DNA of 64,000 nucleotides from Stutzerimonas stutzeri (lineage in GTDB: Bacteria > Pseudomonadota > Gammaproteobacteria > Pseudomonadales > Pseudomonadaceae): positions 496,001 through 560,000 of the forward strand of contig NZ_JAMOII010000002.1 in NCBI RefSeq assembly GCF_024448985.1. The letters are read 5' to 3'. The notes beneath the pieces were generated by a model. That model had not been told where the DNA came from. It was given only the letters and a program-made list of their open reading frames with translations, and made no database searches. Of the stretch, positions 19,659 through 36,166 are shown one piece after another (the first letter of the stretch is position 1; every line of letters starts with the position of its first letter). Made by a program: the position numbers and the translations under genes.

Positions 19659-20885
19659 TCAGACCCAGCGGCGGAAGATCAATGAGGTATTGATACCGCC
19701 GAAGGCGAAATTGTTGTTCATGACGTACTCGTGCTGCATGGTCCGCGGCGCGCCGACGATATAGTCCAGCTCGCCACAGCGCGGATCGATCTCGTCAAGA
19801 TTGAGCGTGTGGATATAGCGGTCGCGGTTCATCATTTCGATACTGAACCAGGACTCCAGAGCCCCGCAGGCGCCCAGCGTGTGCCCGAAAAAACTCTTCT
19901 GCGAACTGATCGGCATACGCGAACCGAATAGCGCCTGAGTCGCGTGGGTTTCGGCGATGTCGCCCTGCTCGGTGGCAGTGCCATGGCCGTTGACGTAGCC
20001 GATGGCATCGGCTTGCAAACCCGCATCCTCCAGCGCCAGCTCCATGGCCCGGCGCATGGTCAGCTGTTCGGGTTTCGTCGCATGCTGGCCGTCGGCATTG
20101 CTGCCGAAGCCCACTAGCTCGGCATAAATGGTAGCGCCGCGGGCGAGGGCATGTTCGAGCTCTTCGAGCACCAGCATGCCGGCGCCTTCGCCGATCACCA
20201 GGCCATCACGGCCGCTGTCGTAGGGGCGTGGCGTGGTATGGGGCGCATCGTTTTTCAAACTGGTGGCATAGAGGGCGTCGAAGACCATGGCCTCGGTGGC
20301 GCAGAGTTCCTCGGCGCCACCGGCGAGCATCAGCGGCAAGCGCCCGTACTTGATCGCCTCGTAGGCGTAGCCAATGCCCTGGCTGCCGCTGGTACAAGCG
20401 CTGGATGTAGGAATCACCCGGCCGGTCAGGCCGAAGAAGATGCTGATATTGGCGGCCGTGGTGTGCGGCATCATGCGGATGTAGGAGTTGGCGTTGAGGC
20501 CATCGGCGACCGAATTGAGCAGCATGTTGCCGAAGGCCTTGATTTCTTCGGTGCTGCCGGTGGAAGAGCCGCAGGCGACGCCCATGCGCCCGTCACGAAT
20601 GCTCTGATCGTCGAGCAGCCCCGCTTGCTGCAGGGCCTGCTCAGCGGCTTTTACCGACAACCGTGAGACGCGGCCCATGCTGCGCAGTTGCTTGCGCGTC
20701 CAGTGCGAGGGCACGACGAAATCATCCACCGGGCCGGCCAAGCGGGTATTCAACTCGCTGAAACGGTCCCACTCGTCCATGCGCCGGATGCCGCTGCGGT
20801 TGGCATTGAAGTTGGCCTCAATGGACGCCCAGTCGCTGCCCAGCGAAGTGATGCCGGCCATGCCGGTGACGACGACGCGTTTCAT
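19659..20885 (-). CDS. apeR: Aryl-polyene cluster ketosynthase (FabF-like), last gene of the cluster
   Basis: A 408-residue beta-ketoacyl-ACP synthase II-type enzyme that condenses malonyl-ACP with an acyl chain. The catalytic triad is complete: Cys164 in SSACTSGSQ, His301 in NGHGTAT and His335 in FGHTLGAC, with a conserved Lys330. By position it matches ApeR of aryl-polyene clusters, the second ketosynthase after the reductase. The start at 20885 overlaps the stop of the ketoreductase gene (TGATG), so translation is probably coupled. A housekeeping FabF is unlikely given the surrounding genes. The ape symbol is inferred from collinearity with the E. coli and Xenorhabdus clusters as I remember them. 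Confidence 0.85.
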   Translation of the reverse strand: MKRVVVTGMAGITSLGSDWASIEANFNANRSGIRRMDEWDRFSELNTRLAGPVDDFVVPSHWTRKQLRSMGRVSRLSVKAAEQALQQAGLLDDQSIRDGRMGVACGSSTGSTEEIKAFGNMLLNSVADGLNANSYIRMMPHTTAANISIFFGLTGRVIPTSSACTSGSQGIGYAYEAIKYGRLPLMLAGGAEELCATEAMVFDALYATSLKNDAPHTTPRPYDSGRDGLVIGEGAGMLVLEELEHALARGATIYAELVGFGSNADGQHATKPEQLTMRRAMELALEDAGLQADAIGYVNGHGTATEQGDIAETHATQALFGSRMPISSQKSFFGHTLGACGALESWFSIEMMNRDRYIHTLNLDEIDPRCGELDYIVGAPRTMQHEYVMNNNFAFGGINTSLIFRRWV

Positions 20886-21613
20886 CAGCACAGCCCGCCA
20901 TTCACGGCTAGGACCTGACGGGTGATATAGCCTGCCTCATCCGACATCAGGAAGTTCACGGCTCCGGCGACCTCCTCGGGCGTTCCCATGCGCTGGGCGG
21001 GGACCATCTTGAGCATCTCCTCGATGGGCAGGTGTTCGTCGAGCATGTCGGTTTCGATCAGTCCTGGTGCGACGCAGTTGACGGTGATCCGGCGCTTGCC
21101 CAGCTCCACCGCCAGCGCCTTGGCCGCGCCGATCACCCCGGCTTTGGAGGCACTGTAGTTGACTTGGCCGCGATTGCCGATCAGTCCCGATACGGACGTG
21201 ATGCAAACGATTCGGCCCGGCTGGCGCCGACGGATCATTGGCATCGTCAGCGGCTGCAGCACGTTGAAAAAGCCGTCCAGATTGGTACGCAACACCTGAT
21301 CCCAATCGTCTTCGCTTAGCGCCGGAAAGGCGCCGTCGCGGGTCAGACCGGCGTTGCAGACTACCCCGTAGTAGGCGCCGTATGACTCGATATCGGCCTC
21401 CAGCCGCATGCGGCATTGAGCACGGTCCGCAACGTCGAACTGCAGGATGCGCGCCTGACGTCCCATTGCCTGGATTTGCGCTTGCACGGCTTCGGCCTCG
21501 TCACGCCGGGCGCGGCAATGCAGGACGATATCGTGGCCGCTCTGGGCCAGACGCAAGGCGATGGCACGGCCAATACCACGGCTGGAGCCGGTGACGAGAA
21601 TGGTTTTGCTCAT
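20885..21613 (-). CDS. apeQ: Aryl-polyene 3-ketoacyl-ACP reductase (FabG-like)
   Basis: Short-chain dehydrogenase that reduces the 3-keto group of each newly extended acyl-ACP with NADPH. The 242-residue protein has TGSSRGIG at residues 8-15 and the catalytic Ser140, Tyr153 and Lys157 (ITSVSG...YSASK), all intact. The ATG at 21613 overlaps the dehydratase stop by four bases. A long in-frame extension to 21706 is not supported. It sits between the dehydratase and second ketosynthase, giving a P-Q-R order like other aryl-polyene clusters. Confidence 0.87.
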   Translation of the reverse strand: MSKTILVTGSSRGIGRAIALRLAQSGHDIVLHCRARRDEAEAVQAQIQAMGRQARILQFDVADRAQCRMRLEADIESYGAYYGVVCNAGLTRDGAFPALSEDDWDQVLRTNLDGFFNVLQPLTMPMIRRRQPGRIVCITSVSGLIGNRGQVNYSASKAGVIGAAKALAVELGKRRITVNCVAPGLIETDMLDEHLPIEEMLKMVPAQRMGTPEEVAGAVNFLMSDEAGYITRQVLAVNGGLC

Positions 21614-22062
21614 GGAGTGGGCTCTTGAAGATAGCTCGCCACCTCGGGCGGGCGAAACACGTTGAGACGCGCCTCGGCATGGATATCGGGCCCGTCGAGA
21701 TGGCATTCGAACACGCCCATGCCGTTGTCATCCTGCAGTGAGCGCAGCGCACGGATGCGCAGCGTGACGCCAGCCGGAAAGTGTTCGACATTGCATTGAT
21801 AGTTGCGAGTGCCGAGCAGGAAACCCAGCTCGACCGGCAGCCCGGCCAGGCGTGACTGACAGCCGGCGAACGCGGCGACGGCCTGCGCCATGATTTCCAC
21901 GCCGACCCAGGCCGGCAGATTGCCGTCGGGCAGATTGAGCAGACCGGTGGGCTTCACTTGCAGGCTGGCCTCCAGGCTTTCCGCGTCGAAGGCTTCAACC
22001 GCATCGAGCAGAATCATGTTGCCGGCGTGGGGCAGCAGTTCGGCGATTGGCCAGTCGATCAT
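21610..22062 (-). CDS. apeP: Aryl-polyene 3-hydroxyacyl-ACP dehydratase (hotdog fold)
   Basis: A 150-residue hotdog-fold protein expected to remove water from 3-hydroxyacyl-ACP, giving the conjugated double bonds. The opening LLPHAGNMILLD carries the FabZ-like catalytic His, and AWVGVEIMAQAVAAFAG matches the central helix with the acidic residue (Glu). It overlaps both neighbours by four bases. A second dehydratase domain is fused to the acyl ligase at 31809-33488, so the cluster appears to encode two. Confidence 0.85.
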   Translation of the reverse strand: MIDWPIAELLPHAGNMILLDAVEAFDAESLEASLQVKPTGLLNLPDGNLPAWVGVEIMAQAVAAFAGCQSRLAGLPVELGFLLGTRNYQCNVEHFPAGVTLRIRALRSLQDDNGMGVFECHLDGPDIHAEARLNVFRPPEVASYLQEPTP

Positions 22063-23246
22063 GACGCGTCTCCGAGTATCAGGCTGATGTTGTTGCCGCC
22101 GAAGGCGAAGGAGTTGCTCATCATCGTTCGCCGGCCCGCCACGGCCATGGTCGTACCGTCGGTGACCAGATTCAGGCGCGGCAAGTCGGCATCCTGCTGG
22201 TTGTCCCAGCGATGCGGTGGCAGCAGGCGTGCGGGATTGCCATCGGACAGCGCCAGCCAGCAGAGCGCAGCTTCCAACGCCCCGGCGGCGCCCAGAGTGT
22301 GCCCGGTAAGCGGCTTGCTTGAAGAGCAGGCCACACCGCCCGGAAATACCGTGTCCACCGCCAGACTTTCCATCGCGTCGTTGTGCCGGGTGGCGGTGCC
22401 GTGCAGATTGAGATAGCCGATCTGCTCCGCCTGGATCGATGCACTGGCAATCGCCTTGCGCATGGCCTTGATGGCGCTCAGCCCTTGCGGATCGGGGGCG
22501 GAGATGTGGTGGCCATCGGAGCTGGCACCACCGCCGAGCAGGGCGATAGGGGCTGGCTCGCGGGTCATTAGAAATACGGCCGCGGCTTCGCCGATATTGA
22601 TCCCGTCGCGGTTGGCCGAAAACGGATTGCAGATGCGCTCGCTGATCGCCTCCAGGGCGCTGAAGCCCTGCAGCGTGAGGTCGCAGAGGGTGTCCACGCC
22701 GCCGCAGATCACCGCATCGCAGATCCCTGCGTCCAACAGGCGTTTAGCGCTGAGCAGCGCGCGTGCGCTCGAGGTGCAGGCGGTGGAGATGGCGTAACTC
22801 GGACCGCTTAGCTGCAGCCGTTCGCTGAGAAAGCTCGCCGGGGCGCAAAGCTCCTGATGGCCGTAGTGGTAGCTGGCCGGAAGTTGTCCGTCGCGAGTCA
22901 GCTCGGCGATGCCCTGGCTGGCTTCTTGGATGCCGGTGGTGCTGGTGCCCATGACCACGCCGATACGCGCAGGACCGAAGCGGGCTATGGCTTCATGCAG
23001 CTCGGTCTCGATCTCCTCGACAGCGGCCAGCAGCATCTGGTTGTTACGTGTCGCATGGCGCTGCGGGCAATCGCCGAGAGAAGGCAGCTCGCAGGTGACG
23101 GCACCGACCGGAACGCGCCGGCCGACAACCGGCTGCGGATGCGGCTGCATGGCTGAACCGTCACCTGTCAGCAGCCGTCGGGTCACCTCGGCCTTACCGC
23201 GACCCAGCGCGCAGATCACCCCGAGGGCGTTCAGGTAGGCGGTCAT
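22059..23246 (-). CDS. apeO: Aryl-polyene ketosynthase, probable partner of the chain-length factor
   Basis: A 395-residue FabB/FabF-type ketosynthase with Cys157 in STACTSSA, His282 in LHGTAT, Lys311 and His316 in LTGHTLGAAG, so it is catalytically complete. It follows the DUF3261 lipoprotein gene, the position of ApeO, which pairs with the chain-length factor ApeC in characterised clusters (established for Xenorhabdus). The start at 23246 is an ATG inside the ATGA overlap with the lipoprotein stop. The frame stays open upstream to 23516, but that part only overlaps the lipoprotein gene. Confidence 0.86.
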   Translation of the reverse strand: MTAYLNALGVICALGRGKAEVTRRLLTGDGSAMQPHPQPVVGRRVPVGAVTCELPSLGDCPQRHATRNNQMLLAAVEEIETELHEAIARFGPARIGVVMGTSTTGIQEASQGIAELTRDGQLPASYHYGHQELCAPASFLSERLQLSGPSYAISTACTSSARALLSAKRLLDAGICDAVICGGVDTLCDLTLQGFSALEAISERICNPFSANRDGINIGEAAAVFLMTREPAPIALLGGGASSDGHHISAPDPQGLSAIKAMRKAIASASIQAEQIGYLNLHGTATRHNDAMESLAVDTVFPGGVACSSSKPLTGHTLGAAGALEAALCWLALSDGNPARLLPPHRWDNQQDADLPRLNLVTDGTTMAVAGRRTMMSNSFAFGGNNISLILGDAS

Positions 23247-23776
23247 TTCTGGCGGGCTCCGGTAGCTGTCGCAATGGGGGCGACACCATAGGTCAGCGCC
23301 GACCCTACGTCGAGATCGAAGCGATCGTTCTCCCGATACCGGACATGCCATGCCGACAACGTATCGCTTGCCAGTGATCGCCCGTCCTGCTGCGGGCTCC
23401 AAGACGTATCGGAGTACAGGTCGTCCAGCTGATCGGCGGGCGTCAAGGCGAACAGCAGGGCAGCGAACAGCTCGCGCGCCTCGGCATTGGGCGGTAGCAG
23501 ACCATCCGCCCGCCATTGGCCATCGACCAACAGCTGGCGCGCCAGGGGAACGCCCAGCGGATCGAGCAGCGACCAGCGCAAGGCAGCGCCTTCCTGCTGG
23601 ATCACCAACCGCCAGGTACGCACGTCATCCTGGCTCCGGCGCTCGATGTGCAGCTGTAGCGGCAAATCGAGTCGTGGCATCTGAGTCGGCAGCGGCGCGC
23701 GTTGAGCGCAGGCGCCAAGCATCAGTGCCAGCGACAGCCAGACCAGGCAGCGCGCGTGACGGTTCAGCACATTCAT
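23243..23776 (-). CDS. DUF3261-type lipoprotein of the aryl-polyene cluster
   Basis: Predicted outer-membrane lipoprotein of 177 residues. The signal peptide ends in the lipobox LGAC, followed by AQRAPLPTQMPRLDLP. The body contains QQEGAALRWSLLDPLGVPLARQ, resembling DUF3261 proteins found beside aryl-polyene ketosynthases, and has LolB-like character. It probably helps place the lipid-linked pigment in the outer membrane (inference). The ATG at 23776 lies just after the stop of the flavoenzyme gene; a GTG at 23794 is also possible. The 3' end overlaps the ketosynthase start by four bases. Confidence 0.78.
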   Translation of the reverse strand: MNVLNRHARCLVWLSLALMLGACAQRAPLPTQMPRLDLPLQLHIERRSQDDVRTWRLVIQQEGAALRWSLLDPLGVPLARQLLVDGQWRADGLLPPNAEARELFAALLFALTPADQLDDLYSDTSWSPQQDGRSLASDTLSAWHVRYRENDRFDLDVGSALTYGVAPIATATGARQK

Positions 23777-23786
23777 GCAGGCAGAC

Positions 23787-25031
23787 TCAAACACTTGTCA
23801 CAGGCGCGGCGCACAGCTCAGCCAACACCCGAAGGCGGCGTTTGGGCTCGGCGACGTAGGGATTCTTTTCGTCCCAGGCATAGCCGGCAAGAATCGAACT
23901 GATCATCCGGCGGATCTCAGGTTGAGCGTGCTCGTAATAGATCACGTCTTGGAAGCTGCCGTCGTACCAGCCCTCGACATAGGTGCGGAAGGTATTTACG
24001 CCGCGCTTGAGGGGCACTGCGAACTCTGCTTCCCAATCCACCGTTTCGCCCGACAGCTGACGATGCAGCACCGCTGCCGCCATGCTTGCCGAGCGCATGG
24101 CGATGGTGACACCGGAGGAAAACACCGGATCGAGGAACTCCGCCGCATTGCCCAGCAGGGCGAAACCCGGACCGTGCAGCGACTTGACGTTGGCCGAGTA
24201 GCCACCGATCAGGCGCGCCGGTGTGTCCCACTCGGCATGCTTGAGGATGCGCTTGAGGTTGGGCGCCTCGAGCACGAGCTCCTTGAGGCAGGCATCCAGA
24301 TCCAGCGGGCGGCCTTCGTAGCGCTCGGCGCTGGCGACAACGCCGAGCGAGCAGCGACCGTTGCTGAAGGGAATGGTCCAGTACCAGACGTCGCGCAGCT
24401 CGGGATGGGTGGTGATGAGGATCTTGTCGCGGTCGAATTGCGGGTCGTCGATGTTGTCCTGGATGTGCGTGAACACGGCGCGACGCAGCGGAAAGTTCGA
24501 CGGCGCTTCCAGGTCGAGCAGGCGCGGCAGGACGCGACCGTAACCGCTGGCGTCGAGGACGAACGCTGCTTCGACGGCATATTCGCTGCCATCCAGGCGG
24601 CGCACCTGCAGACGCGGGCGCGGATTGGCGAAGTCCGCCGCGATGATTTCCTCTTCATAGCGGATCTCGACGCCCTGCAACCCGGCCTGATCGGCCAGCA
24701 ACTTGTCGAAGTCGGCGCGCAGAACCTGATAGGTGCTGCCGTGACCCTCGGTGAATTTGTCGCGGAAATCGAACTCGCTGTAGCGCTCGCCCCAACCGAA
24801 CGCTGCACCATGCTTGGTCTGGAAACCGGCGGCCTGGACCGCTTCGAGCATCCCGGCTTCCTCGACGAAATCCAGGCAGTGCGACAGCAGGCTCTCGCCG
24901 ATGGAGAAACGCGGAAAACGCTGGCGCTCGATGATCAGCACATCGTGCCCCTTGCGCTTGAGCAAGGCGGCAGCGATGGCACCGGACGGTCCTGCACCAA
25001 TGACGACGACGCTACGTTGTTCTGCATTCAT
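23787..25031 (-). CDS. Flavin-dependent monooxygenase, halogenase-like
   Basis: A 414-residue FAD enzyme. The dinucleotide-binding motif GAGPSG is at residues 12-17, GESLL at 45-49, a KHGAAF segment with Lys73, and WYWTIP at 216-221. The last fits the WxWxIP fingerprint, and Lys73 fits the K-x-G-A-x-F lysine of FADH2-dependent halogenases. A geranylgeranyl-reductase-type oxidoreductase is the alternative. Such genes occur in some aryl-polyene and xanthomonadin clusters, and xanthomonadins are brominated, so ring halogenation is plausible but unproven. AAGGATC lies nine bases before the ATG. The gene stands between the exporter and the lipoprotein, preceded by a 153-base gap. Confidence 0.8.
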   Translation of the reverse strand: MNAEQRSVVVIGAGPSGAIAAALLKRKGHDVLIIERQRFPRFSIGESLLSHCLDFVEEAGMLEAVQAAGFQTKHGAAFGWGERYSEFDFRDKFTEGHGSTYQVLRADFDKLLADQAGLQGVEIRYEEEIIAADFANPRPRLQVRRLDGSEYAVEAAFVLDASGYGRVLPRLLDLEAPSNFPLRRAVFTHIQDNIDDPQFDRDKILITTHPELRDVWYWTIPFSNGRCSLGVVASAERYEGRPLDLDACLKELVLEAPNLKRILKHAEWDTPARLIGGYSANVKSLHGPGFALLGNAAEFLDPVFSSGVTIAMRSASMAAAVLHRQLSGETVDWEAEFAVPLKRGVNTFRTYVEGWYDGSFQDVIYYEHAQPEIRRMISSILAGYAWDEKNPYVAEPKRRLRVLAELCAAPVTSV

Positions 25032-25184
25032 GAAGATCCGATCCTTGATCGACTCGGTTGGAAGGGTGGCCGCCGTAGGGCAACCGCGGAAAATGTTCAG
25101 CGCGGGGTCGAGGTGATGCGCAGCTCACGATGGATGTCGCCGCAGTTCAAGGAGGCAACGCCAGCGTGTGCGATGCTCGACCGC
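25032..25184. other. 153-base gap inside the otherwise gapless cluster
   Basis: Between the exporter stop and flavoenzyme start there is no credible gene. A 14-codon frame overlapping the exporter stop is too short to support. The AAGGATC ribosome-binding site of the flavoenzyme is at its left end. No hairpin or promoter was obvious. Confidence 0.5.
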
Positions 25185-27524
25185 TCAGCATGCGGTTTCT
25201 CTGTCAGGCTCGGCGGCCCAGGGCGCCAGCGAGAAGGCGAATACCAGCCCGAGTCCCACCGCCAGGCCGAAATTGCTCACCGCCGGTGTGCTCGATAAGG
25301 CTAGCAGCCCGAATGACAACCAGGTGGTGACGGCCGTCAGCAAGGTGCCGACCAGGCTCACCGCGGCTCCGCCGATGCGTTCGCGCATCAGGATGGCGTA
25401 GTCCACGCCGATTGCGGTGACCAACAACAGCCCGAACAGGCCGAACAGGGTCAGCGGCTGGCCCAGCCAGCCCAGGCAAGCCAGGCTGCCCATCGCGGCC
25501 AGCAGCGGTACGGCCAGGCAGCGCGATGCGCCGCGCCAACCGAACGGCAGGCACAGCAGGACGAAAATCAGCCCCGCCGCCAGCAGCTTGAGCAGCGCCG
25601 CCTGACCTTGGGTCTCGGCGAACAGGCGGTTGAGTTCGGCGGGTCGGTCGATGAGTTTCACCCCGCCGATGCCTTCGCCCAAGCCGTGAAGCGCCGCGCT
25701 GTCAAGAAGCCCTTGTAGGCTGACCAAGCCCGCGACCGAACCGTCGTTTTGGGCACCCAGCCATAACGGTTGCCAAGGTTCGGCGAGCGGCCCCGCCAGC
25801 ACCTGATCGAGACTGGCCACCGGCAACGTCAGCAGTCCGGCAAGTTCCTGTTCGAGCATTTCCTGGGTCACGCCGAGTTCCAGCAAGGGCTGGCTGGCTT
25901 CCAGCAAGCGTGGCAGCGCGGAATGCAGGCTTTCCTGTGCGGTGGCGGGCGCGACCAGCTGGCTCAGCGCCAGGTAGCCATGCAGCTTGTCTTCGGCGAC
26001 AAGAACGTCGAGGCGGGCGGCAAGTTCGTCCTGACGCGTCAGTAGCTCGTCGGGGTTGGCCGCGCGGACTAGAAAGTACTGGCTGGTCGGCTCGAATCCA
26101 GTGATCTCGCCGATGCGTTCGGTCTGCTGCTGCAGTGCGGGTGCACGGCTGATCCACTGGCGCAGGTCATCCTTGAAAGACACCTGGCTGATCCCGGCGA
26201 TGCAGAACAGGATGAACGCGGCCAGCAACCAGGGCGTTGGAACGCGGCGGAGCAGGGCGCCGCGCAACTTCATCCAGCGCTCGGCCCAGCCAAGCGGGGC
26301 GGCCCATGGCTGTAGCGACGCGTTCAGCAACGAGGGTAACAGGCAGGTGGCACAGAAGAAGGCGCCGAGCAGCCCCGCCGCGGAAAACACCGCCACCTGG
26401 CTCAACGCTGGAAACGGCGTAAACGACATTGCCAGATAGCCGATAACGTTGGTTGCCAAGGCCAGCGCCAAGCCTGGAAGCGTCAGGCGCAGCGCTCGAT
26501 ATGCATGCCAAGGTTGCAAGGTCCAGCTTTTGGATAGGTAATGCAGCGGGAAGTCGATACTGACCCCAACCAGGCTGGCACCGAGTACCAAAGTCAGCAC
26601 ATGGATCTGACCGAATAGCGCCACACAAGCGGCGGCACCGCTGAGGGCTCCGACCGCCACTGGCAGCGCGACCAGCAAGACACGAGGCGTGCGGAAAAGC
26701 AGATGCAGCAAGGCGAGCGTGGCGACCAACGAGATGCTGCCGATCAGCGTTGCTTCTTCACGGGCCTGGCGCTGTCCATGGGCGGCGTACAGCAGCCCAC
26801 CGGCGGCCAGTAGCTCGCCCTGGCTGGCTTCCACCCGGCTACGGGCCGCACGTACCTGGTCGTCCACCAGAACCGGCAGTTGGTCGTCGAAGGCATCACC
26901 CTGGGCTTGAGCATGGATCACCGCCCAGTGCTGCCCGCCATGCTCCGCGACCAGCAAGCCGTCCAGGCGGGGATGGATATTCCCCGGATGCGGCAGCTGT
27001 CGCTGCGCCAGATCGGCGAAACCGAACCAGTCCTGTTCGACGGGCACAAGGCTAGTGCTTTCGAACGGACTGTACAGACGCTGAAGGCGTTGCTGAATGA
27101 AGTCTTCCGGCGAGGCGATCAGTGCCTCGCGACTCGCTGGCCCCAGTAGCGCCAGACGTTGATCGAGCAGTTGCTGACGCACCGCAGGCAGGTCGGCTTG
27201 CACTGAGCGACGAACCTGGGTGAACAAGCCGCTGGCGCGAAGGGTGTCGGTAATTTCATTGCCCAGCGCGTGGGTTGTGTCCTCGTTCGCATGATGGATC
27301 AGCAGCATCAGATCGCGGTTCAACGGCTCCTGCATCCGTCGCTCGGCGAGTTGCTCAAGCTCGCCGGGCGCACCGCTGGGCAGCAACTGCAGCAGATCGG
27401 CACTGATCGGCGAGCCGTTGCGCCATTGCCATGTCGTCAGCCCCACCAGCCCAAGCAGCGCAACGAAAAACAGCGAGGAGAGCCAGGTCGGAAGCCTGAG
27501 CGCTTTGTCAGTTGGCGAAGTCAT
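25185..27524 (-). CDS. MMPL/RND-type lipid exporter of the aryl-polyene cluster
   Basis: A 779-residue inner-membrane transporter with about 12 predicted membrane segments arranged as two repeats. Each repeat is one helix, a large periplasmic loop, then five helices. An acidic residue sits in the SIDFPLHYLS and VDYAILM helices, as in MMPL and RND pumps. In aryl-polyene clusters this protein is thought to move the lipid-linked product across the inner membrane. It overlaps the LolA-like gene by 17 bases. The sequence ends at EPDRETAC; nothing recognisable follows before the flavoenzyme gene. Confidence 0.88.
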   Translation of the reverse strand: MTSPTDKALRLPTWLSSLFFVALLGLVGLTTWQWRNGSPISADLLQLLPSGAPGELEQLAERRMQEPLNRDLMLLIHHANEDTTHALGNEITDTLRASGLFTQVRRSVQADLPAVRQQLLDQRLALLGPASREALIASPEDFIQQRLQRLYSPFESTSLVPVEQDWFGFADLAQRQLPHPGNIHPRLDGLLVAEHGGQHWAVIHAQAQGDAFDDQLPVLVDDQVRAARSRVEASQGELLAAGGLLYAAHGQRQAREEATLIGSISLVATLALLHLLFRTPRVLLVALPVAVGALSGAAACVALFGQIHVLTLVLGASLVGVSIDFPLHYLSKSWTLQPWHAYRALRLTLPGLALALATNVIGYLAMSFTPFPALSQVAVFSAAGLLGAFFCATCLLPSLLNASLQPWAAPLGWAERWMKLRGALLRRVPTPWLLAAFILFCIAGISQVSFKDDLRQWISRAPALQQQTERIGEITGFEPTSQYFLVRAANPDELLTRQDELAARLDVLVAEDKLHGYLALSQLVAPATAQESLHSALPRLLEASQPLLELGVTQEMLEQELAGLLTLPVASLDQVLAGPLAEPWQPLWLGAQNDGSVAGLVSLQGLLDSAALHGLGEGIGGVKLIDRPAELNRLFAETQGQAALLKLLAAGLIFVLLCLPFGWRGASRCLAVPLLAAMGSLACLGWLGQPLTLFGLFGLLLVTAIGVDYAILMRERIGGAAVSLVGTLLTAVTTWLSFGLLALSSTPAVSNFGLAVGLGLVFAFSLAPWAAEPDRETAC

Positions 27525-28125: not shown

Positions 28126-28550
28126 CACAATAAGGCCCGCTCTACGGCTTCGACAAAGACCTTCGGCGAGGCCAGCAGCATCTCACGGCTGGCCATGTCC
28201 ACCGCCACCTGAACGCTGCTGCCACGGGTCATGCGTTCGCCGGTCTCGGCGTCGCTGATCAGGTAATTGATCTTCAGACGGTTCTCCCATTCGATCAAGT
28301 CGGCACGCACGAGGATGCGCTGATTGAAGCGCGCACCGCGCATGTATCGCAGCTGCACGTCGATCACCGGCCAGGCGTAGCCGGCATCGCGCATCTGGGT
28401 GTAGTTGTGGCCGATGCGTTCGAGCAGCGCGCAGCGGGCGACCTCGAAGTATTTGATGTAGTGACCGTGCCAGACCACGTCCATCGAATCGACGTCGAAG
28501 AAGGGCACCAGGACTTCGACTTCCGCCTGCAATACGCCGCTCTTACGCAT
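28125..28550 (-). CDS. apeK: 4HBT-family acyl thioesterase of the aryl-polyene cluster
   Basis: A 141-residue single hotdog domain. The active-site region DVVWHGHYIKYFEVARC (residues 24-40) matches the 4-hydroxybenzoyl-CoA thioesterase type, where the acidic residue and His act on the thioester. It may release or proofread acyl chains from the carrier proteins. The ATG at 28550 overlaps the lyase stop by eight bases; an upstream start at 28571 would overlap further and lacks support. The symbol follows the position of ApeK in known clusters. Confidence 0.8.
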   Translation of the reverse strand: MRKSGVLQAEVEVLVPFFDVDSMDVVWHGHYIKYFEVARCALLERIGHNYTQMRDAGYAWPVIDVQLRYMRGARFNQRILVRADLIEWENRLKINYLISDAETGERMTRGSSVQVAVDMASREMLLASPKVFVEAVERALL

Positions 28551-30087
28551 AAAGCCCCCAATGTCGATCACGGATACGTTGCAGACACAGGCGCAGCTCG
28601 CCTTCCAGCGCGCGGTCTTCGATCAGCGGCGGGAAGTCCTCGCCCAACTCGGCATGCATGTCGCGCAGCGGTGCGGGCAACGGCCGCGCCTGTTCATCGC
28701 GCTGACGCAACCAGACGCCCTGGTTGGCCGCGATCAGTGTTGCCGCTGCCACTTGCTCGGCCAGCTCCAGGCTGCGCAGCGCGTCGCGGGCGGCGATGGT
28801 GCCCATGCTGACCTTGTCCTGGTTGTGGCATTCGGTCGAGCGCGAGAACACGCTGGCCGGCATGGTGTTTTTCAAGGCTTCGGCGGTCCAGGCGCTGGCG
28901 CCGATCTGCACCGCCTTGAAGCCATGATTGATCATCGCGGTGGACGCCGACGCGCCGGACAGGTTGCTCGGCAGGCCGTGGTTGTAGCGGGTATCGACCA
29001 GCAGCGCTAGTTGGCGGTCGAGCAGGTCGGCGACGTTGCCCACCAGGTTCTTCAGGCTATCCATGGCGAAGGCGATATGTCCGCCATAGAAGTGCCCGCC
29101 GTGTAGCACGCGCTCATTTTCCGCATCGATGATGGGGTTGTCGTTGGCGCTGTTCAGTTCGGTTTCGATGAATTGGCGCAGCAGCCCCAGGCTGTCGGCC
29201 AGCACGCCGAGCACGTGGGGTGCGCAGCGGATGGAATAACGGTCTTGTAAACGATGCAGCGGTGCGGTCGGCGCATCGATGGCCAAGTCCTGGCGAATCC
29301 AGGCGGCGACCTGAGTCTGGCCGGGATGCGGCTTGGCGGCGAACAGGCGCTCGTCGAAATGCTCCGGATTGCCTTCCAGCGCCACCACGTTGAGTGCGGT
29401 GATGCGCGTGGCCAGTTTGAGCAGGTAATCGGCGCGGGCATAGGCCAGGCAGGCCAGGCCGGTCATCACTGCGGTACCGTTCATCAACGCCAGCGCTTCC
29501 TTGGGACGTAAGGTCAGCGGCGTCCAGCCTAGCTGGCGATGCACGTCGGCGGCGCTGCGACGCTCGCCTTGGTACATCACCTCGCGCTCGCCAGCCAGGC
29601 TGGCGGCCACGTAGGACAACGGCGTCAGATCGCCACTAGCACCGACCGAGCCTTCTTCGGGAATCAGCGGCAGAATGTCGTGTTCGAGAAAGGCCTGCAT
29701 GCGTTCGAGCAGTTCGATGCGTACGCCGGACATGCCGTGGGTCAGCGAGCGCAGGCGCGCGGCGAGCACGGCGCGGGTCGCTTCAGCGTCGAGCAGCTTG
29801 CCCAGGCCGCAGCCGTGGAAGGTGAACAGGTGCTGCGGCAGCGCTTCGACCTGATGCAGCGGCACCGCCACCACGCAGGAATCGCCGTAGCCGGTGGTTA
29901 CGCCGTAAATCACGCCTTCGCGGTCGAGCAAGGTGTCGAGAAATTGCGCGCCACGCGCGATTTGCTGGCGGAAGTTAGGGTCGCCCTGCAACTGCGAGGG
30001 CGCGCGGCGCTCGGCCACGGCCAGCACATCCTCGATGCTCAGGTGGTTTTCGCCGAAGATCACCGGCTCAGCTGCAGCGTTGTTCAT
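28543..30087 (-). CDS. Aromatic amino acid ammonia-lyase (HAL/TAL/PAL family)
   Basis: A 514-residue MIO-enzyme that removes ammonia from an aromatic amino acid to give a cinnamate. Ala150-Ser151-Gly152 in GSVGASGDLTPL forms the MIO group, and the catalytic Tyr61 lies in IYGVTTGYGDS. The substrate-selectivity position reads F-H-G (His91). His there is found in tyrosine ammonia-lyases, while HutH has Ser-His and PAL usually Phe-Leu, so p-coumarate production is plausible (inference). There are no hut genes nearby. It probably supplies the aryl starter unit. The ATG at 30087 overlaps the acyltransferase stop by 20 bases; a frame open to 30246 is not supported. Confidence 0.85.
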   Translation of the reverse strand: MNNAAAEPVIFGENHLSIEDVLAVAERRAPSQLQGDPNFRQQIARGAQFLDTLLDREGVIYGVTTGYGDSCVVAVPLHQVEALPQHLFTFHGCGLGKLLDAEATRAVLAARLRSLTHGMSGVRIELLERMQAFLEHDILPLIPEEGSVGASGDLTPLSYVAASLAGEREVMYQGERRSAADVHRQLGWTPLTLRPKEALALMNGTAVMTGLACLAYARADYLLKLATRITALNVVALEGNPEHFDERLFAAKPHPGQTQVAAWIRQDLAIDAPTAPLHRLQDRYSIRCAPHVLGVLADSLGLLRQFIETELNSANDNPIIDAENERVLHGGHFYGGHIAFAMDSLKNLVGNVADLLDRQLALLVDTRYNHGLPSNLSGASASTAMINHGFKAVQIGASAWTAEALKNTMPASVFSRSTECHNQDKVSMGTIAARDALRSLELAEQVAAATLIAANQGVWLRQRDEQARPLPAPLRDMHAELGEDFPPLIEDRALEGELRLCLQRIRDRHWGLYA

Positions 30088-31015
30088 GGTTGTTCCAGAA
30101 AGGATAGAAATTGAACCATTGCAGGGGAGCGTCCAAGCAGTGCGCCGCCAGTCGGTCGGCGTAGCGTTGCACCCACTGCTGCACCACCGCATCGCGTTCG
30201 CCGCGGCGCCAGTGGATGCGTTCGGCGAAGGGCTCCAGATGGACATGGAAATGTTCGCCGTGTTTCAGGCAGAACAGCAGATTCACCGGGCATTGCAGCA
30301 GCCCGGCCAGTAGCCACGGACCCTGCGGAAAATTTGCCGGCTGGCCGAGAAAGTCTGCGCTGGCGATACGCGCGCCATGCAGCGGCACGCGGTCGCCGGC
30401 AATCGCCAGCCATTCGCCGTCGTCCAGCCGGCGCGACAGCTCCATCATGATGGCCGGGTCCAGCTCGCTGACCTGGATCAGGCGCAGGTTGACCGCGCCG
30501 GATTGGTCCAGCAATCGGTTGAAGCGCTCGGCGTGGCGAGTGTGCACCAGCACGTTCATCTTCACCTTGCGGCCCATTTCGGCCAGCGCGCGACAGATTT
30601 CCAGATTGCCTAGATGCGAGCCGACCAGCAGTTGGCCGCGCGGCGCCTCGAGCTCGGCTTCCAGATCCGTCTGGTCGTGCAGCACAAGACTGTCGAGGTC
30701 GAGGCGGCCGCCCCAGGCGTCTAGCTTGTCCAGCAGGGCATCGGCGAACGCCATGAACTGGCGATAAACGGAGCGCCGGCTGGGCGCCAGATCGTGGCGG
30801 CCGCTCCAGTTGGCAAGGTTGCGCTGATAGGTCCAGGCGCTCTGCCGCGCGCGGCCACCGAACAGGTAGAAGTACAGCACGATCAGGTACAGCAGCGGCG
30901 CCATGGCGCGGCGGCCGAGCAGGCACACGGCCTGAGCGGTGAGCTTCATCAAGACGAAGCTGCCGCGCTCGCGGTGCGCGGCCCAGTGCGAGTCGGCGGC
31001 GGCCTTGTCGGTCAT
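30068..31015 (-). CDS. LpxL/HtrB-type acyltransferase of the aryl-polyene cluster
   Basis: A 315-residue lysophospholipid acyltransferase-family protein with an N-terminal hydrophobic segment (about 27-52) and the catalytic H-x4-E motif SHLGNLE (His134, Glu139), as in lipid A late acyltransferases. It probably attaches a fatty or aryl-polyene acyl chain to a lipid precursor. It starts within the four-base overlap with the glycosyltransferase stop. In some clusters an acyltransferase is fused to the glycosyltransferase; here they are separate genes. A frame open to 31111 has no ribosome-binding support. Confidence 0.82.
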   Translation of the reverse strand: MTDKAAADSHWAAHRERGSFVLMKLTAQAVCLLGRRAMAPLLYLIVLYFYLFGGRARQSAWTYQRNLANWSGRHDLAPSRRSVYRQFMAFADALLDKLDAWGGRLDLDSLVLHDQTDLEAELEAPRGQLLVGSHLGNLEICRALAEMGRKVKMNVLVHTRHAERFNRLLDQSGAVNLRLIQVSELDPAIMMELSRRLDDGEWLAIAGDRVPLHGARIASADFLGQPANFPQGPWLLAGLLQCPVNLLFCLKHGEHFHVHLEPFAERIHWRRGERDAVVQQWVQRYADRLAAHCLDAPLQWFNFYPFWNNHEQRCS

Positions 31016-31812
31016 CCGCGCCACCGACGCCATAGCAATGCGGGCGCACGCAACAGCATGCCGCCGAACAGTCGGGCGTGCATCGAGGAAATCAGCAGGT
31101 TGTCGCGCCACAGGCGGAAGTGCGACACCCCATCTGCCGGGTAGTGAACATGGGTTGGTAGCCAGACCATCGGCTGCTCACGCCAATGCAGGCGCACCAG
31201 AATCTCGGTATCAAAATCCATGCGCTTGCCGAGTGCTGTGTCGTTGAGCAGCGTCAGGGTCGGCCCGAGCGGGTAGACGCGAAAACCACACATGGAGTCG
31301 CGGATCGACAGCGACAGCGTGTTGATCCACACCCAGACGTGGGTCAGGTAGCGCGCGTACAGCCGACCTTTCGGCACGCTGGAGTCGTACTCCGGATAGC
31401 CGCAGATCAACGCATCCGGCGCCTGGCTGGCGCGGTCGAGAAACAGCGCCACACGGCCGAGGTCGTGCTGGCCGTCGGCGTCGACCTGCAGCGCATGGCT
31501 GAAGCCCAGGCGGGAGGCCTCGCGAAGCCCGGAGGACACCGCCGCGCCCTTGCCCTGGTTGTGGCTGTGCCGCAGCAGATGCACCAATGAATGTTGCGCC
31601 AGCTCATCGATGATCTTTGCAGCAGCGGGGCTGGAGGCATCGTCGACGATCACGCACGGCAGATCTTCGGCGAGCAGCGCCCGGACCACCGCGGGCAGGC
31701 TGCGCTCGTGGTTGTACACCGGCACCACCGCGCAGGGTTTGAACCAGTCTTCATCGATCGCCAGCTGCAGTTGCCGATCGGCGCCGGATGCGATTGGGGT
31801 GAGCGTGGTCAC
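31012..31812 (-). CDS. Family 2 glycosyltransferase of the aryl-polyene cluster
   Basis: A 266-residue GT2 enzyme. AVVPVYNHERSLP opens the nucleotide-sugar domain, VDDAS (56-60) supplies the first acidic pair, and DADGQHD (111-117) is the DxD metal-binding motif. A short hydrophobic patch follows near the C-terminus. It likely adds a sugar to the pigment head group or lipid. The start is a GTG at 31812 in a GTGA overlap with the acyl-ligase stop. Longer frames to 32115 read over the ligase gene and lack support. Confidence 0.85.
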   Translation of the reverse strand: MTTLTPIASGADRQLQLAIDEDWFKPCAVVPVYNHERSLPAVVRALLAEDLPCVIVDDASSPAAAKIIDELAQHSLVHLLRHSHNQGKGAAVSSGLREASRLGFSHALQVDADGQHDLGRVALFLDRASQAPDALICGYPEYDSSVPKGRLYARYLTHVWVWINTLSLSIRDSMCGFRVYPLGPTLTLLNDTALGKRMDFDTEILVRLHWREQPMVWLPTHVHYPADGVSHFRLWRDNLLISSMHARLFGGMLLRAPALLWRRWRG

Positions 31813-33488
31813 GAGTATTCTCCCAGCAGAATGCGGCCGGACGAGCAGGGCGCGTCGCCGTTGCGGTACGCGAAATGCAGCTTGCTGCGCTCGCGATCGA
31901 AGCGAAGGGTCAGATATAACTGATCGCCAGGCCGGGCGAGCTGCTGGAACTTGAGCACTTCCATGCCCTGAAAACGCGGTGGCAGATTGTCGATCAATTC
32001 GCGTGCGAGGCTGATGGCCCAGTCGATTTGGACCACGCCGGGCAGCACCGGCGTCTGTGGAAAATGGCCGGTGAAATGCGCGAGATCCAGCGGCACGCCG
32101 AGCTTCAGCTGCCATGGGCCATCGTCCTGGTTTGCGCTGATTCGCTCGGGCAGCATCGGGCGTGGCGCCTGCAACACGGCATCGAGTTGCGCCTGCGGCA
32201 GTTTGCCTTGGGCGTTACAGGGCAGTAGTCGAACCAACCGCCAGCGGCGTGGCAGGGCCAGCGCCTCACAATGGCTCGCCAGGTGTTTGCGCAAGGCCTC
32301 GGTCAGGGCGCGCCGGCCACCGTTGCGCAGTGCATGCAGGCCGGCATCGCTAAGGGCGACCAGCGCTCCGAGGTAGGCCCGGTTGTCGGTGATCACGCCG
32401 AGGCGCGCTTCGCCGACGAACGGGTGGGTAGCCAGCGCGGCTTCCAGCATCGGCAGGGAAATCCGCTTTTCTTCGAGCTTGACGATGCGATCCAACCGGC
32501 CGAGCAGTTCGAAGCGGCCATCTGCCTCGATTCGCGCGGCATCGGCCGTCTGTTCGAGATGGCCGGGCGGCAAAAAAGGTGAGGCGACCTGCAGCGCGCC
32601 GTCGTCGTTTTGACTCAGCCGCACGGCGGCGAACGGCTGCCACAGCGTGCCGCCCTGGCGCCAGGCGATGCCACCGGTTTCCGAACTGCCGTAGATTTCC
32701 GTTGGCGCTTGGCCCAAGCGCTGTTGCAGCCGTTGCCCGGCGCCGGCATCGAGCGGGCCCCCCGAGGAAAATATCCGCCGTACGTCGCGCAGGGCTGGCC
32801 AGTCGAGGTTGTCGCCCATCCGCTTGAGCAGCGCCGGGCTGGCGACCCAGCAGAAGCTGGGGTGCTGACGGCTGGCCAGTTGGATGTCTTCGGCAAATGG
32901 CAGGGCACGGCGCAGAAAGAGGCGACCGGCGCACAGTGGCCAGAGCACGCGAAACAGCAGTCCATAGATGTGCTGCGCGGCGACGCTGGCGATTACGCAC
33001 GCATCGCCCAGATCGTCACCCCAGTGCGCTTCGAGCGCTTGTACTTCGTTCGCCAGCTGGCGCAGGCGCTTGTCGATCAGTTTCGGCTCGCCACTGGAGC
33101 CGGACGTGCAGAGCAACAGACGGCACTGGTCTAGGTCCAGCTTCGCCCCTTCGAGCGGTTCGGCCAGAAGATCCGAAAGCCGGGCGTCGCCGTCCTGATC
33201 CGTCAGCCAGAGATCGGCCTGATGTGCCAGGCGCGAGCGGCTCGCGGGCTGCAGGTCCGCCGGTAGCAATACCGTCACGCCGGCTCGCCAGGCGCCGAGC
33301 AAGGCGATAGCCAGCTCGCCGGCATCTTCCAGATGAACCGCGAGCCGGGCGACGCCGCGGTTGCGCAGGCCGGCAGCCAGGCGTAGCGCCTGCTGGCGCA
33401 GTTCGGCGTGGTCGAGGGCCCGCTCCAGGGTAACCTGACGCGACTTGGGCGCCTGCTCGAGCAGATGCTCCAGCGAAATCCAGTTCAT
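31809..33488 (-). CDS. Acyl-ACP/CoA ligase fused to a FabA/FabZ-like dehydratase
   Basis: A 559-residue two-domain protein. Residues 1-455 are an ANL adenylate-forming ligase with TSGSSGEPK (128-136) and the GRLDRIVK hinge. The C-terminal ~100 residues form a hotdog dehydratase with the catalytic His475 in TGHFPQTPVLPGV. The parts match ApeH and ApeI of described aryl-polyene clusters, where I recall them as separate genes, so the fusion is notable. The ligase would load a cinnamate-type starter onto a carrier protein. It overlaps the neighbours by four bases at each end. Confidence 0.86.
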   Translation of the reverse strand: MNWISLEHLLEQAPKSRQVTLERALDHAELRQQALRLAAGLRNRGVARLAVHLEDAGELAIALLGAWRAGVTVLLPADLQPASRSRLAHQADLWLTDQDGDARLSDLLAEPLEGAKLDLDQCRLLLCTSGSSGEPKLIDKRLRQLANEVQALEAHWGDDLGDACVIASVAAQHIYGLLFRVLWPLCAGRLFLRRALPFAEDIQLASRQHPSFCWVASPALLKRMGDNLDWPALRDVRRIFSSGGPLDAGAGQRLQQRLGQAPTEIYGSSETGGIAWRQGGTLWQPFAAVRLSQNDDGALQVASPFLPPGHLEQTADAARIEADGRFELLGRLDRIVKLEEKRISLPMLEAALATHPFVGEARLGVITDNRAYLGALVALSDAGLHALRNGGRRALTEALRKHLASHCEALALPRRWRLVRLLPCNAQGKLPQAQLDAVLQAPRPMLPERISANQDDGPWQLKLGVPLDLAHFTGHFPQTPVLPGVVQIDWAISLARELIDNLPPRFQGMEVLKFQQLARPGDQLYLTLRFDRERSKLHFAYRNGDAPCSSGRILLGEYS

Positions 33489-34063
33489 GTACGTTTCCTA
33501 ACTCGCTGGCGTACCAGCCACTCACCGGCAAACAGCAAGCCCATCAGCAGATAGGCGATAAGCCCGGTGTACAACGTCCACCAGCTCAGCGGCGCCCAAA
33601 GCACGAGCCCACTAGCGATGCCGGCGTTGATGATGAAAAAGCCTACCCAGACCCATGTCACCTGCCGCGTATAGCGCACCGCAGCCGGCGGCAATTCGGG
33701 CTCGCTCAGCCGCGCCAGGCGCTCGATGATCGGCATGCCGGAACACAGACTGCCGGCAAACAGGCCGAGCAGCGCGAGGCTGATCAACACCGGATACCAG
33801 GGCAGTAGCGCGGAGTCGTCCACGACCCCAAGCAGCAGGCAGAACAGCAGGGCCACCGCCGCGACTGTGCGGCTCAGGGGAGTCTGCTTAGCGCCGAGCA
33901 ACCGTGCCAGCCACAGCGCGCCCAGCAGCATGGCGAACAGCCGTGGCGACAAATGCTCCAGGCCCAGATACACCACGAACGGATAGGCGAGGCCGGCCAG
34001 CAGCAGGCCGAGACCAATCAGCCGGCTGGCGTTCGCCTTGCCTGTTCGAGCGGATACTTGCAT
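33485..34063 (-). CDS. COG4648-type integral membrane protein of the aryl-polyene cluster
   Basis: A 192-residue protein with about five hydrophobic segments (near residues 14-34, 42-52, 64-80, 87-107 and 135-180) and no enzymatic motif. Similar multi-pass proteins sit between the carrier-protein and ligase genes in aryl-polyene clusters (ApeG position). Function unknown; an accessory part of lipid export or attachment is possible. The start at 34063 leaves a 78-base gap to the carrier-protein gene, one of the few gaps in this cluster. Confidence 0.75.
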   Translation of the reverse strand: MQVSARTGKANASRLIGLGLLLAGLAYPFVVYLGLEHLSPRLFAMLLGALWLARLLGAKQTPLSRTVAAVALLFCLLLGVVDDSALLPWYPVLISLALLGLFAGSLCSGMPIIERLARLSEPELPPAAVRYTRQVTWVWVGFFIINAGIASGLVLWAPLSWWTLYTGLIAYLLMGLLFAGEWLVRQRVRKRT

Positions 34064-34141
34064 CGCATGCTGTCCGTTGGCGCGAGAAGACGCATCGTTC
34101 GGTCCGTGGCCGGCCGGCGCCTGGCTTCCCTGGGGTTTGGC

Positions 34142-34399
34142 TCAAGCCGTTTGCGTATTCACCAGGCGGTACACCGCCTCGACGACGTCGCCCACGGTAC
34201 GCACCGATTTGAATTCATCGGCGGCGATCTTCTTGCCGGTCTGGCGCTTGATGTGATCGATCAGGTCGACGGCGTCGATGCTGTCGATCTCCAGATCCTG
34301 ATAGAGGTTGGCCTCAAGGGTGATGCGCTCGGGTTCCAGCTCGAACAATTCGACCAGCGCGTCGCGCAAGGTCTGGAAAATTTCATCACGGGTGTTCAC
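34142..34399 (-). CDS. apeF: Acyl carrier protein (second of two)
   Basis: An 85-residue ACP. The 4'-phosphopantetheine attachment serine is Ser40 in the DLEIDSIDAVDLID context. It begins 12 bases after the first ACP stop. One ACP may carry the starter or growing chain and the other may serve the ligase or reductive enzymes (inference from the two-ACP aryl-polyene systems). No phosphopantetheinyl transferase gene lies in this cluster, so a genomic one must act on it. Confidence 0.9.
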   Translation of the reverse strand: MNTRDEIFQTLRDALVELFELEPERITLEANLYQDLEIDSIDAVDLIDHIKRQTGKKIAADEFKSVRTVGDVVEAVYRLVNTQTA

Positions 34400-34411
34400 G
34401 TTGGGCTCTCC

Positions 34412-34675
34412 TCAGGCGACGGCGCGGTTGGCGCTAACGTAGGCGGCCAGGCTGTCGACGCTGGCGAAATGCTTGCGGGTGTCTTTCGCATCGGCGTCGA
34501 TCTTGATGCCGAAGCGCTTCTGGATAGCCAGACCCAGCTCCAGCGCGTCGACCGAGTCCAGCCCGAGCCCTTCGCCGAAGAGCGGCTCATCGGTCGGAAT
34601 ATCATCTGGTCCGAGGTCTTCCAGACCCAGGGCGTCGATGATCAGTTGCTTGATTTCAAGCTGTAATTGGCTCAT
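34412..34675 (-). CDS. apeE: Acyl carrier protein (first of two)
   Basis: An 87-residue ACP with Ser41 in GLGLDSVDALELGL as the phosphopantetheine attachment site and the usual four-helix amphipathic pattern. Its 5' end overlaps the acyltransferase gene by 20 bases, and a second ACP gene follows. The two ACPs differ strongly in sequence, which argues for distinct partners rather than duplication. Confidence 0.9.
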   Translation of the reverse strand: MSQLQLEIKQLIIDALGLEDLGPDDIPTDEPLFGEGLGLDSVDALELGLAIQKRFGIKIDADAKDTRKHFASVDSLAAYVSANRAVA

Positions 34676-35480
34676 CGAGTGCGAGCTCCTTTATGAAGTG
34701 TCGATGCAGATGGTCGTTGAGTCGCCTCGAGGCGATGGGCGCCGCCCCCTGTGCGGCGAAAACCTGCGGGTCGATGTCTTCGCCCACGCGCAGGTGAAAA
34801 TGAAAACGTCGTGCCGGAATGCGATACCAGGGCTCGGCTTTGGTCAGTGTGGTGGGCGTCACGCTGATTACCACGGGCGTCACCAGGCGTGCGCCGCGCA
34901 GGGCAATCGCCGCCGCGCCGCGATGAAACTGCGGGGCTTGGCCGGGTGTGGTGCGCGTCCCTTCGGGGAAGATGATTAGCGTTTGGTCCTGTCGCAGCGC
35001 GTCGGCAGCTTCGTCGAGCATTTCGGCGCTGCCGTTGTTGCTGATGTACTGCGCCGCGCGAATTGGGCCGCGGGTGAAGGGGTTATCCCAGAGGCTTTGC
35101 TTGACCACGCAATTGGCATCGCGGATCAGCGAGATCAGCACCACCACATCGATCAGCGAAGGGTGGTTGGCTAGCACCAGCTGCCCGGGACGGCCGAGCC
35201 GCTCGGCCCCTTCGACTTCATAGGTCAGCACGCCGCTGCGATACATGAATTGGACGAACAGCCAGAACAGCCGGCTCACGGTCTGACGCGCTCGTCGGCG
35301 GTGTTTGGCCGCATCGCCGGGTAGCAGGTCGAGCAGAGGGAAAACGAGCAGCCGCAAACACAGACCGCCAACGCCGAACAGCGCAAAGGACAGTCCTGTC
35401 GCGATCAAACGCCACAGCCATGGCGCGTCGCGATGCTTGTTCAGCGAGTTCGCTGCCAGGTCCATCGACGTCTGTTCCAT
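34656..35480 (-). CDS. PlsC-type 1-acylglycerol-phosphate acyltransferase of the aryl-polyene cluster
   Basis: A 274-residue membrane-associated acyltransferase. The NHPSLID motif gives the H-x4-D catalytic pair (His106, Asp111), and FPEGTR (171-176) binds the glycerol phosphate. Hydrophobic segments precede the motif. It corresponds by position to ApeD. The start is uncertain: ATG at 35480 overlaps the upstream gene by 40 bases and ATG at 35465 by 25; neither has a strong ribosome-binding site. Confidence 0.82.
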   Translation of the reverse strand: MEQTSMDLAANSLNKHRDAPWLWRLIATGLSFALFGVGGLCLRLLVFPLLDLLPGDAAKHRRRARQTVSRLFWLFVQFMYRSGVLTYEVEGAERLGRPGQLVLANHPSLIDVVVLISLIRDANCVVKQSLWDNPFTRGPIRAAQYISNNGSAEMLDEAADALRQDQTLIIFPEGTRTTPGQAPQFHRGAAAIALRGARLVTPVVISVTPTTLTKAEPWYRIPARRFHFHLRVGEDIDPQVFAAQGAAPIASRRLNDHLHRHFIKELALDEPITA

Positions 35481-36166
35481 TGATGCGTGCAGGTGTGGCG
35501 ACCGTCGAGCAAAGCGCGAATCAGCTCGATGGCGTGTGGTCGGGGTGCCCGGGTGCTTTTTTCGTCGGCGGTTTCGAGGCTCAGCCGCCAACCGTGACCG
35601 GGTTTGAGCAATAGCGCCACGGCGTAGGGAAAGCTGATATCGCTGATCCAGGGGGCATAGACAGGTGGTGTCTGGTCTTCGGCAACGACCACCAGAACGG
35701 CTGGAGCACCTTCATCAAGCAGCATGGCCGCTTCGAGCACAGCATGCTCCAGGCCGTCGCCTTCAGCTGCGAGCGCCGTCATTTCGCTGGTGTCGCGTTG
35801 CTGAATCGACCAAAGACCGATAATCGCGTTATGCACCGACAGGCTGAATTGAGTCGGCGAAAGGGCTTCGTTGTGCGCAAGATCGCTAAGAATGGCAAAG
35901 GTGCGCGCGGTTTCGCCATGGCGGGAGGCGTAGACCAGCGGCATCTGCTCGGTAGCCAGCGGCGTGGACACCGCAAATACCATGCGCGCCAAGCGGCTCA
36001 GCCGACGCCGTTGCATAGCCGGCAGGAAGCTCACATCCGGCTGTGCCTCGCTGCTTTCGAGGTCGCGCGGATTCCGGGCCCAAATCGCCCAGTCATCAGC
36101 GCTTGCCAAGCCTGGAGCCCAGGCCTGCCATTGATCGATATCGAATTGAATCACGCGAGAACTCAC
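35441..36166 (-). CDS. apeC: Chain-length-factor-like beta-ketoacyl synthase fragment family (ApeC-like)
   Basis: A 241-residue protein of the short ketoacyl-synthase family (PF13723 type). It keeps the SVHNAIIGLWSI segment but has no active-site cysteine or second half, as expected for a chain-length factor. In Xenorhabdus the ApeC homologue forms a heterodimer with a ketosynthase. It is the first gene of the operon, 77 bases after a predicted promoter. The start was chosen for length and because the frame stops upstream. Identity rests on motif and position only. Confidence 0.78.
   Translation of the reverse strand: MSSRVIQFDIDQWQAWAPGLASADDWAIWARNPRDLESSEAQPDVSFLPAMQRRRLSRLARMVFAVSTPLATEQMPLVYASRHGETARTFAILSDLAHNEALSPTQFSLSVHNAIIGLWSIQQRDTSEMTALAAEGDGLEHAVLEAAMLLDEGAPAVLVVVAEDQTPPVYAPWISDISFPYAVALLLKPGHGWRLSLETADEKSTRAPRPHAIELIRALLDGRHTCTHQWNRRRWTWQRTR

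Follow-up and report, generated by a model that had tools for sequence, protein, structure and literature searches.

The 64,000-nucleotide stretch of the Stutzerimonas stutzeri genome analysed here (contig NZ_JAMOII010000002.1, positions 496,001 to 560,000 of the forward strand; hereafter the window) very probably carries a complete type II polyketide cluster for an aryl polyene (APE), in the version common in Pseudomonas and Stutzerimonas, whose pigment pathway would be primed by an ammonia-lyase. The cluster comprises 18 collinear, close-packed genes on the minus strand (positions 19659-36166), many of which overlap by a few bases. It was read from the Pfam and NCBIfam profile matches of the 18 translated open reading frames (ORFs), which bear out the APE gene set placed at these positions by a preliminary description of this DNA.

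All parts of an APE core were identified from protein families and residues, i.e. ketosynthases with the Cys-His-His triad, a truncated ketosynthase/chain-length factor, a reductase, two dehydratases and two acyl carrier proteins (ACPs). The ketosynthase triads, the DS/serine motifs of the ACPs and the Ala-Ser-Gly of the lyase are all readable in the translations. The same profile searches recognized the acyl ligase, the glycosyl- and acyltransferases and the thioesterase of the apeC-apeR type. Both domain content and gene order match the apeC-apeR list published for the APE Ec cluster of Escherichia coli CFT073 (PMC8253772), in agreement with the order proposed in the preliminary description. 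Its label "xanthomonadin-like" was abandoned as a class name, because the gene order follows that of E. coli. The genes are as follows:

19659..20891, minus strand: ApeR-type beta-ketoacyl-ACP synthase with a readable Cys-His-His triad (741 bits to NCBIfam PRK09116, above its cut-off)
20885..21613, minus strand: ApeQ-type 3-ketoacyl-ACP reductase of the FabG family (399 bits to NCBIfam PRK05653.1-5 and 391 bits to fabG_rel, each above its cut-off; start shifted from 21706)
21610..22062, minus strand: ApeP-type dehydratase (Pfam ApeP-like, E 1.5e-21)
22059..23249, minus strand: ApeO-type beta-ketoacyl-ACP synthase (NCBIfam PRK09185, 511 bits, aligning from residue 92 of the overlong ORF; start shifted from 23516)
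23243..23776, minus strand: small lipoprotein at the position of ApeN (LGAC, resembling a lipobox, close to the N-terminus)
23787..25031, minus strand: flavin-dependent halogenase-family enzyme (Pfam Trp_halogenase, E 4.9e-22; GAGPSG, K73, WYWTIP)
25185..27524, minus strand: ApeM-type MMPL/RND exporter (Pfam MMPL, E 7.3e-05)
27508..28128, minus strand: ApeL-type LolA-like chaperone (Pfam LolA_3, E 1.3e-06; NCBIfam flexirubin LolA2, E 4.8e-14, below cut-off)
28125..28571, minus strand: ApeK-type hot-dog thioesterase (Pfam 4HBT_2, E 7e-11)
28543..30090, minus strand: aromatic amino acid ammonia-lyase, an MIO enzyme (Pfam Lyase_aromatic, E 5.3e-159; GASGDL; start moved from 30246)
30068..30949, minus strand: LpxL-like acyltransferase, half of E. 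coli ApeJ (Pfam Lip_A_acyltrans, E 9.4e-07; start approximate)
31012..31806, minus strand: glycosyltransferase family 2, the other half of E. coli ApeJ (Pfam Glycos_transf_2, E 8.2e-17; start provisional)
31809..33488, minus strand: fusion protein of an ApeH-type acyl ligase with an ApeI-type dehydratase (one ORF matching both Pfam AMP-binding, E 1.9e-22, and Pfam ApeI-like, E 2.4e-14)
33485..34063, minus strand: membrane protein in the ApeG place (position and hydrophobic sequence; weak IspZ match far below cut-off)
34142..34399, minus strand: ACP in the ApeF place (Pfam PP-binding, E 1.4e-13; NCBIfam PRK05350, over cut-off)
34412..34675, minus strand: ACP in the ApeE place (Pfam PP-binding, E 5.6e-10; NCBIfam PRK09184, over cut-off)
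34656..35480, minus strand: ApeD-type lysophospholipid acyltransferase (Pfam Acyltransferase, E 1.1e-17; start approximate)
35441..36166, minus strand: ApeC-type truncated ketosynthase/chain-length factor (Pfam Ketoacyl-synt_2, E 5.6e-75, N-terminal domain only)

Several mechanically delimited ORFs are overlong at their 5' ends; judging from the translations, the likely starts are 30090 for the lyase, 23249 for ApeO and 21613 for ApeQ. A 507-aa plus-strand ORF (23775-25298) overlies the flavoenzyme gene and was taken as its mirror frame. The components named in the preliminary description were all located where it had placed them, but it had omitted the glycosyltransferase and counted separately the ligase and one of the dehydratases, which form a single gene here. 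In E. coli, by contrast, H and I are separate and J is one gene, whereas in the window H and I are fused and J is split. The H-I fusion is general in a set of 95 loci, since the dehydratase motif, seen in 88 of them, lies within an ORF of more than 450 aa in 87. The E. coli cluster also has a methyltransferase gene before apeC, which has no counterpart among the 18 genes.

The proposed pathway would begin with deamination of tyrosine or phenylalanine by the lyase, yielding 4-coumarate or cinnamate, which the ApeH domain would load onto an ACP. This starter step receives weak support from the ligase, whose top NCBIfam match is 4-coumarate--CoA ligase TIGR02372, far below its cut-off (91 versus 335 bits). 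ApeO and ApeR, together with ApeC, the reductase ApeQ and the dehydratases ApeI and ApeP, would extend the aryl acid into a conjugated polyene, the ring of which may be altered by the flavoenzyme through halogenation or hydroxylation. The acyltransferases would then attach the polyene acid to a lipid carrier, and ApeM, ApeL and ApeN would carry the product to the outer membrane, where it may act as an antioxidant yellow pigment. Activation of the ACPs would fall to a phosphopantetheinyl transferase whose gene lies on another contig.

Several observations weigh against parts of this interpretation. Tyrosine ammonia-lyases carry a His-Leu pair at the selectivity position, phenylalanine ammonia-lyases Phe-Leu and histidine ammonia-lyases Ser-His. 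The window lyase instead has Phe-His (FHGCG) at the corresponding aligned position, as do all 91 lyases recognized in the 95 loci. This pair fits none of the three patterns, the tyrosine one included, and coumarate or cinnamate is therefore named as the presumed product only. Moreover, two genomes (G002, locus L028, and G083, locus L029) retain a cluster with the flavoenzyme in which no lyase gene separates the thioesterase gene from that of the acyltransferase; the starter can therefore have another source. In the Pfam search, neither the lipoprotein in the ApeN place nor the protein in the ApeG place gave a match of its own. The lipoprotein of the preliminary description is in its place beside the matched LolA and MMPL components of the export set, but its assignment to DUF3261 was reached only through homologues, two of the four aligned in alignment A3 (which does not include the window protein) matching this family (best E 9.5e-16). 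Finally, an active-site lysine and WxWxIP are signature motifs of halogenases, but as sequence motifs they are no proof of halogenation.

This last point bears on the flavoenzyme, whose gene sits between those of ApeM and ApeN. All 10 proteins of alignment A2 share its GxGxxG, K73 and WxWxIP, and WxWxIP and QxKxG match in all 89 flavoenzymes recognized by another motif in the 95 loci. The enzyme may nevertheless be a flavin hydroxylase or dehydrogenase of the same pathway, an alternative that competes with the halogenation step alone and to which we give only slightly less than an even chance. Among proteins of solved structure it is by far the closest to 3nix, an entry whose only name is flavoprotein/dehydrogenase (E 3.8e-106, versus 2.8e-45 for the best halogenase), and the match to the NCBIfam CmlS halogenase is far below the cut-off (158 versus 900 bits). 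On the other hand, the lysine and WxWxIP are conserved without exception in alignment A2, and 11 of the 13 solved structures ranked next after 3nix are named halogenases, the other two being CmlS and ChlB4. Published descriptions of xanthomonadin clusters (PMC3691225) and of the arcuflavin cluster (PMC3949708) report a halogenase gene beside an APE core, which the window matches with its own core and halogenase-family gene. In the portions of the literature surveyed we found no mention of the flavoenzyme in Pseudomonas APE clusters; nor did a halogenated Pseudomonas aryl polyene turn up there, which is no claim of its absence from print.

The ammonia-lyase and the halogenase-like flavoenzyme reported in the preliminary description are indeed present (Lyase_aromatic, E 5.3e-159; Trp_halogenase, E 4.9e-22). 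It had also regarded them as extra enzymes, a combination that could give a distinct ring-modified pigment; on this view the cluster would be distinct and rare, and its pigment new. Both are missing from the E. coli gene list in the available part of its description (PMC8253772), and 2 of the 54 ApeO-positive genomes in our family sample lack both: G029, in which the APE core is present, and G053, whose contig is a 7.8-kb fragment. We nonetheless consider this view highly improbable, given how common the pair is. An ammonia lyase has already been named as characteristic in the definition of Pseudomonas APE clusters by sets of homologues (PMC8719888), and the counts described below place the two enzymes together in most of the sampled family genomes that have the cluster.

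The family sample consisted of 119 Pseudomonadaceae genomes, drawn evenly (ApeO, E <= 1e-60; lyase orthologue, >=63% identity; flavoenzyme orthologue, >=51% identity). ApeO was found in 54 genomes, the lyase in 51, the flavoenzyme in 52 and both enzymes in 50. The pair shares a contig in 48 of the latter genomes, 4.5-6.9 kb apart from start to start, and is split between contigs in G040 and G081. An ApeO match accompanies 50 of the 51 lyases and 51 of the 52 flavoenzymes, G081 being the sole genome with the pair that lacks it. The association between lyase and ApeO (Fisher p 1.4e-27) is a guide only, because the genomes are related.

A second sample, chosen by the lyase and thus leaning towards close relatives, contained the best 80 named loci of at least 583 lyase relatives. 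The flavoenzyme is present in 77 of these 80; the exceptions are L048 (S. nosocomialis) and L112, which lack it, and L075, which breaks off before the position of this gene. In the family sample, G103 (locus L025) likewise has the lyase without the flavoenzyme. All 18 query genes were matched in 75 of the 80 loci, and the five others are the two without flavoenzyme and three on short contigs (L059, L075 and L084); in L067 and L086 the ApeR match is only 31 and 35%, and probably represents the other ketosynthase. Among 274 genomes of the class (lyase, E <= 1e-120; flavoenzyme, E <= 1e-80), the lyase was found in 13 and the flavoenzyme in 15, with both in 7, the lyase only in 6 and the flavoenzyme only in 8. 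The two genes are 4.6-5.0 kb apart in six of the seven pairs and 58 kb apart in G366; outside the genus, G258, G273, G275 and G385 carry the pair at a distance of 4.6-4.9 kb. Taken together, the three samples indicate that the pair is standard in the Pseudomonadaceae version of the cluster and sporadic beyond it. The enzymes are separable across genomes, which would fit a role in starter supply for the lyase and in tailoring for the flavoenzyme.

The lyase, whose gene sits between those of ApeK and ApeJ, is identified as an MIO enzyme by its Ala-Ser-Gly triad and its PF00221 match (E 5.3e-159), and GASGDL occurs in all 91 lyases recognized by other motifs in the 95 loci. It resembles HutH at the family level (NCBIfam, E 7.3e-117, 391 bits, below the 524-bit cut-off), and could on this ground be seen as a relict histidine ammonia-lyase unconnected with the pigment, an explanation to which we attach even less credence than to that of a rare cluster. 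In 49 of the 51 lyase genomes of the family sample the gene lies on the same contig as ApeO, at a distance of 5.5-9.2 kb, and many of these genomes contain other, separate lyases with 31-38% identity. The cluster lyase was the sole PF00221 match in the draft genome; its candidacy as the histidine-degradation enzyme of this genome was rejected on the basis of this search and of its linkage to ApeO. Least credible of all is the idea that the 18 genes form an unrelated fatty-acid or lipid cluster, since single enzymes do resemble parts of fatty acid synthase but the ApeP-like, ApeI-like and Ketoacyl-synt_2 families stand alongside the LolA/MMPL/lipoprotein set.

Within the APE cluster of Pseudomonas and Stutzerimonas, two genes carried by most of the best 80 named loci are absent from the window: a methyltransferase gene between those of the flavoenzyme and the lipoprotein (59 loci) and an antiporter-like membrane protein gene between those of MMPL and the flavoenzyme (51 loci). 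Both are absent from 12 loci, namely nine titled Stutzerimonas, L037 and L042 (Pseudomonas sp.) and L075 (which ends before their place). Since the lack of the methyltransferase is common to all nine Stutzerimonas loci, it is a trait of the lineage and not a peculiarity of this strain. The genome under study has no close copy elsewhere (best match 31% identity over about 105 residues, E 3.9e-6), so the ring of its pigment is probably not methylated by that route. We tentatively suggest, as a possibility that we regard as rather unlikely, that the Pseudomonas-type cluster makes a ring-halogenated aryl polyene primed by coumarate or cinnamate, of which the Stutzerimonas strains without the methyltransferase would make an undescribed, unmethylated form.

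In the individual loci, the antiporter-like protein was seen in L024, L026, L030 and L031 and the SAM methyltransferase in L030 and L031, the two flanking the flavoenzyme; in L030 these genes occupy 12954-14114 and 15345-16070.

As stated in the preliminary description, the cluster encodes no phosphopantetheinyl transferase, no match to this family being obtained among the 18 genes with Pfam and NCBIfam; the E. coli cluster is likewise described as lacking a dedicated one (PMC8253772). A search of the draft genome with PF01648 revealed one gene, which lies on contig 8 and has an ORF of 243 aa. Because it is the sole PF01648 gene found, its product, which to judge from its length would be Sfp-type, probably serves both fatty acid synthesis and the pigment cluster; a single phosphopantetheinyl transferase would then act on all carrier proteins.

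APE clusters of the same family are known in Pseudomonas donghuensis SVBP6 (PMC5851621), marine Pseudomonadaceae (PMC10165715) and Pseudomonas from potato fields (PMC8719888). The P. donghuensis cluster contains an ammonia lyase and has been likened to that of Vibrio fischeri (PMC5851621). The latter, APE Vf of Aliivibrio (Vibrio) fischeri ES114 (MIBiG BGC0000837 according to PMC8719888), also combines an ammonia lyase with APE genes (PMC5851621, PMC8719888), a likeness drawn from description only. The NCBIfam profiles of the flexirubin proteins FlxA, FlxB and LolA2 are matched by the window lyase, short-chain dehydrogenase/reductase and LolA-like protein at 317, 272 and 52 bits, scores that all fall short of the curated cut-offs of 700, 340 and 125. 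Pfam and NCBIfam searches confined to the 18 genes revealed no dialkylresorcinol gene. The arcuflavin starter is supplied by a XanB2-type chorismate enzyme (PMC3949708), in place of which the window cluster has the ammonia-lyase. A XanB2-type enzyme that provides hydroxybenzoate also characterizes xanthomonadin clusters, and no such chorismate enzyme was recognized among the same 18 genes, to which this search too was confined.

The cluster is thus widespread and of a kind already known, and this case by itself adds little. A single family, however, offers natural variants: the flavoenzyme is missing in G103 and S. nosocomialis, the lyase in G002 and G083 and both in G029, and the methyltransferase is present in some clusters and absent from others. 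A comparison of the pigments that they make would allow the ring-tailoring steps of this very common bacterial pigment to be assigned.

The chromosomal setting of the cluster is ordinary, its neighbours being glutamate synthase genes, hemE, and genes for a thioredoxin and a transporter, and rpoD. Neither promoter-like sites (1 versus a mean of 2.6 in shuffled sequences) nor terminator-like sites (14 versus a mean of 12.5, sd 3.4) occur in excess, and a repeat search of the window gave nothing judged of note. The ApeO listing, which leaves out 45 genomes without any match, includes 13 genomes of the same genus, this one among them; ApeO is present in 10 and absent from G043, G080 and G110. Among the matches listed, the nearest named relative by lyase is S. 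stutzeri 28a39 (99% identity), followed by strains titled Stutzerimonas or Pseudomonas. The G+C content, calculated in 2-kb steps, is 62-67% over positions 20001-36000, as against 55-62% over 1-18000 and 57-65% over 36001-64000.

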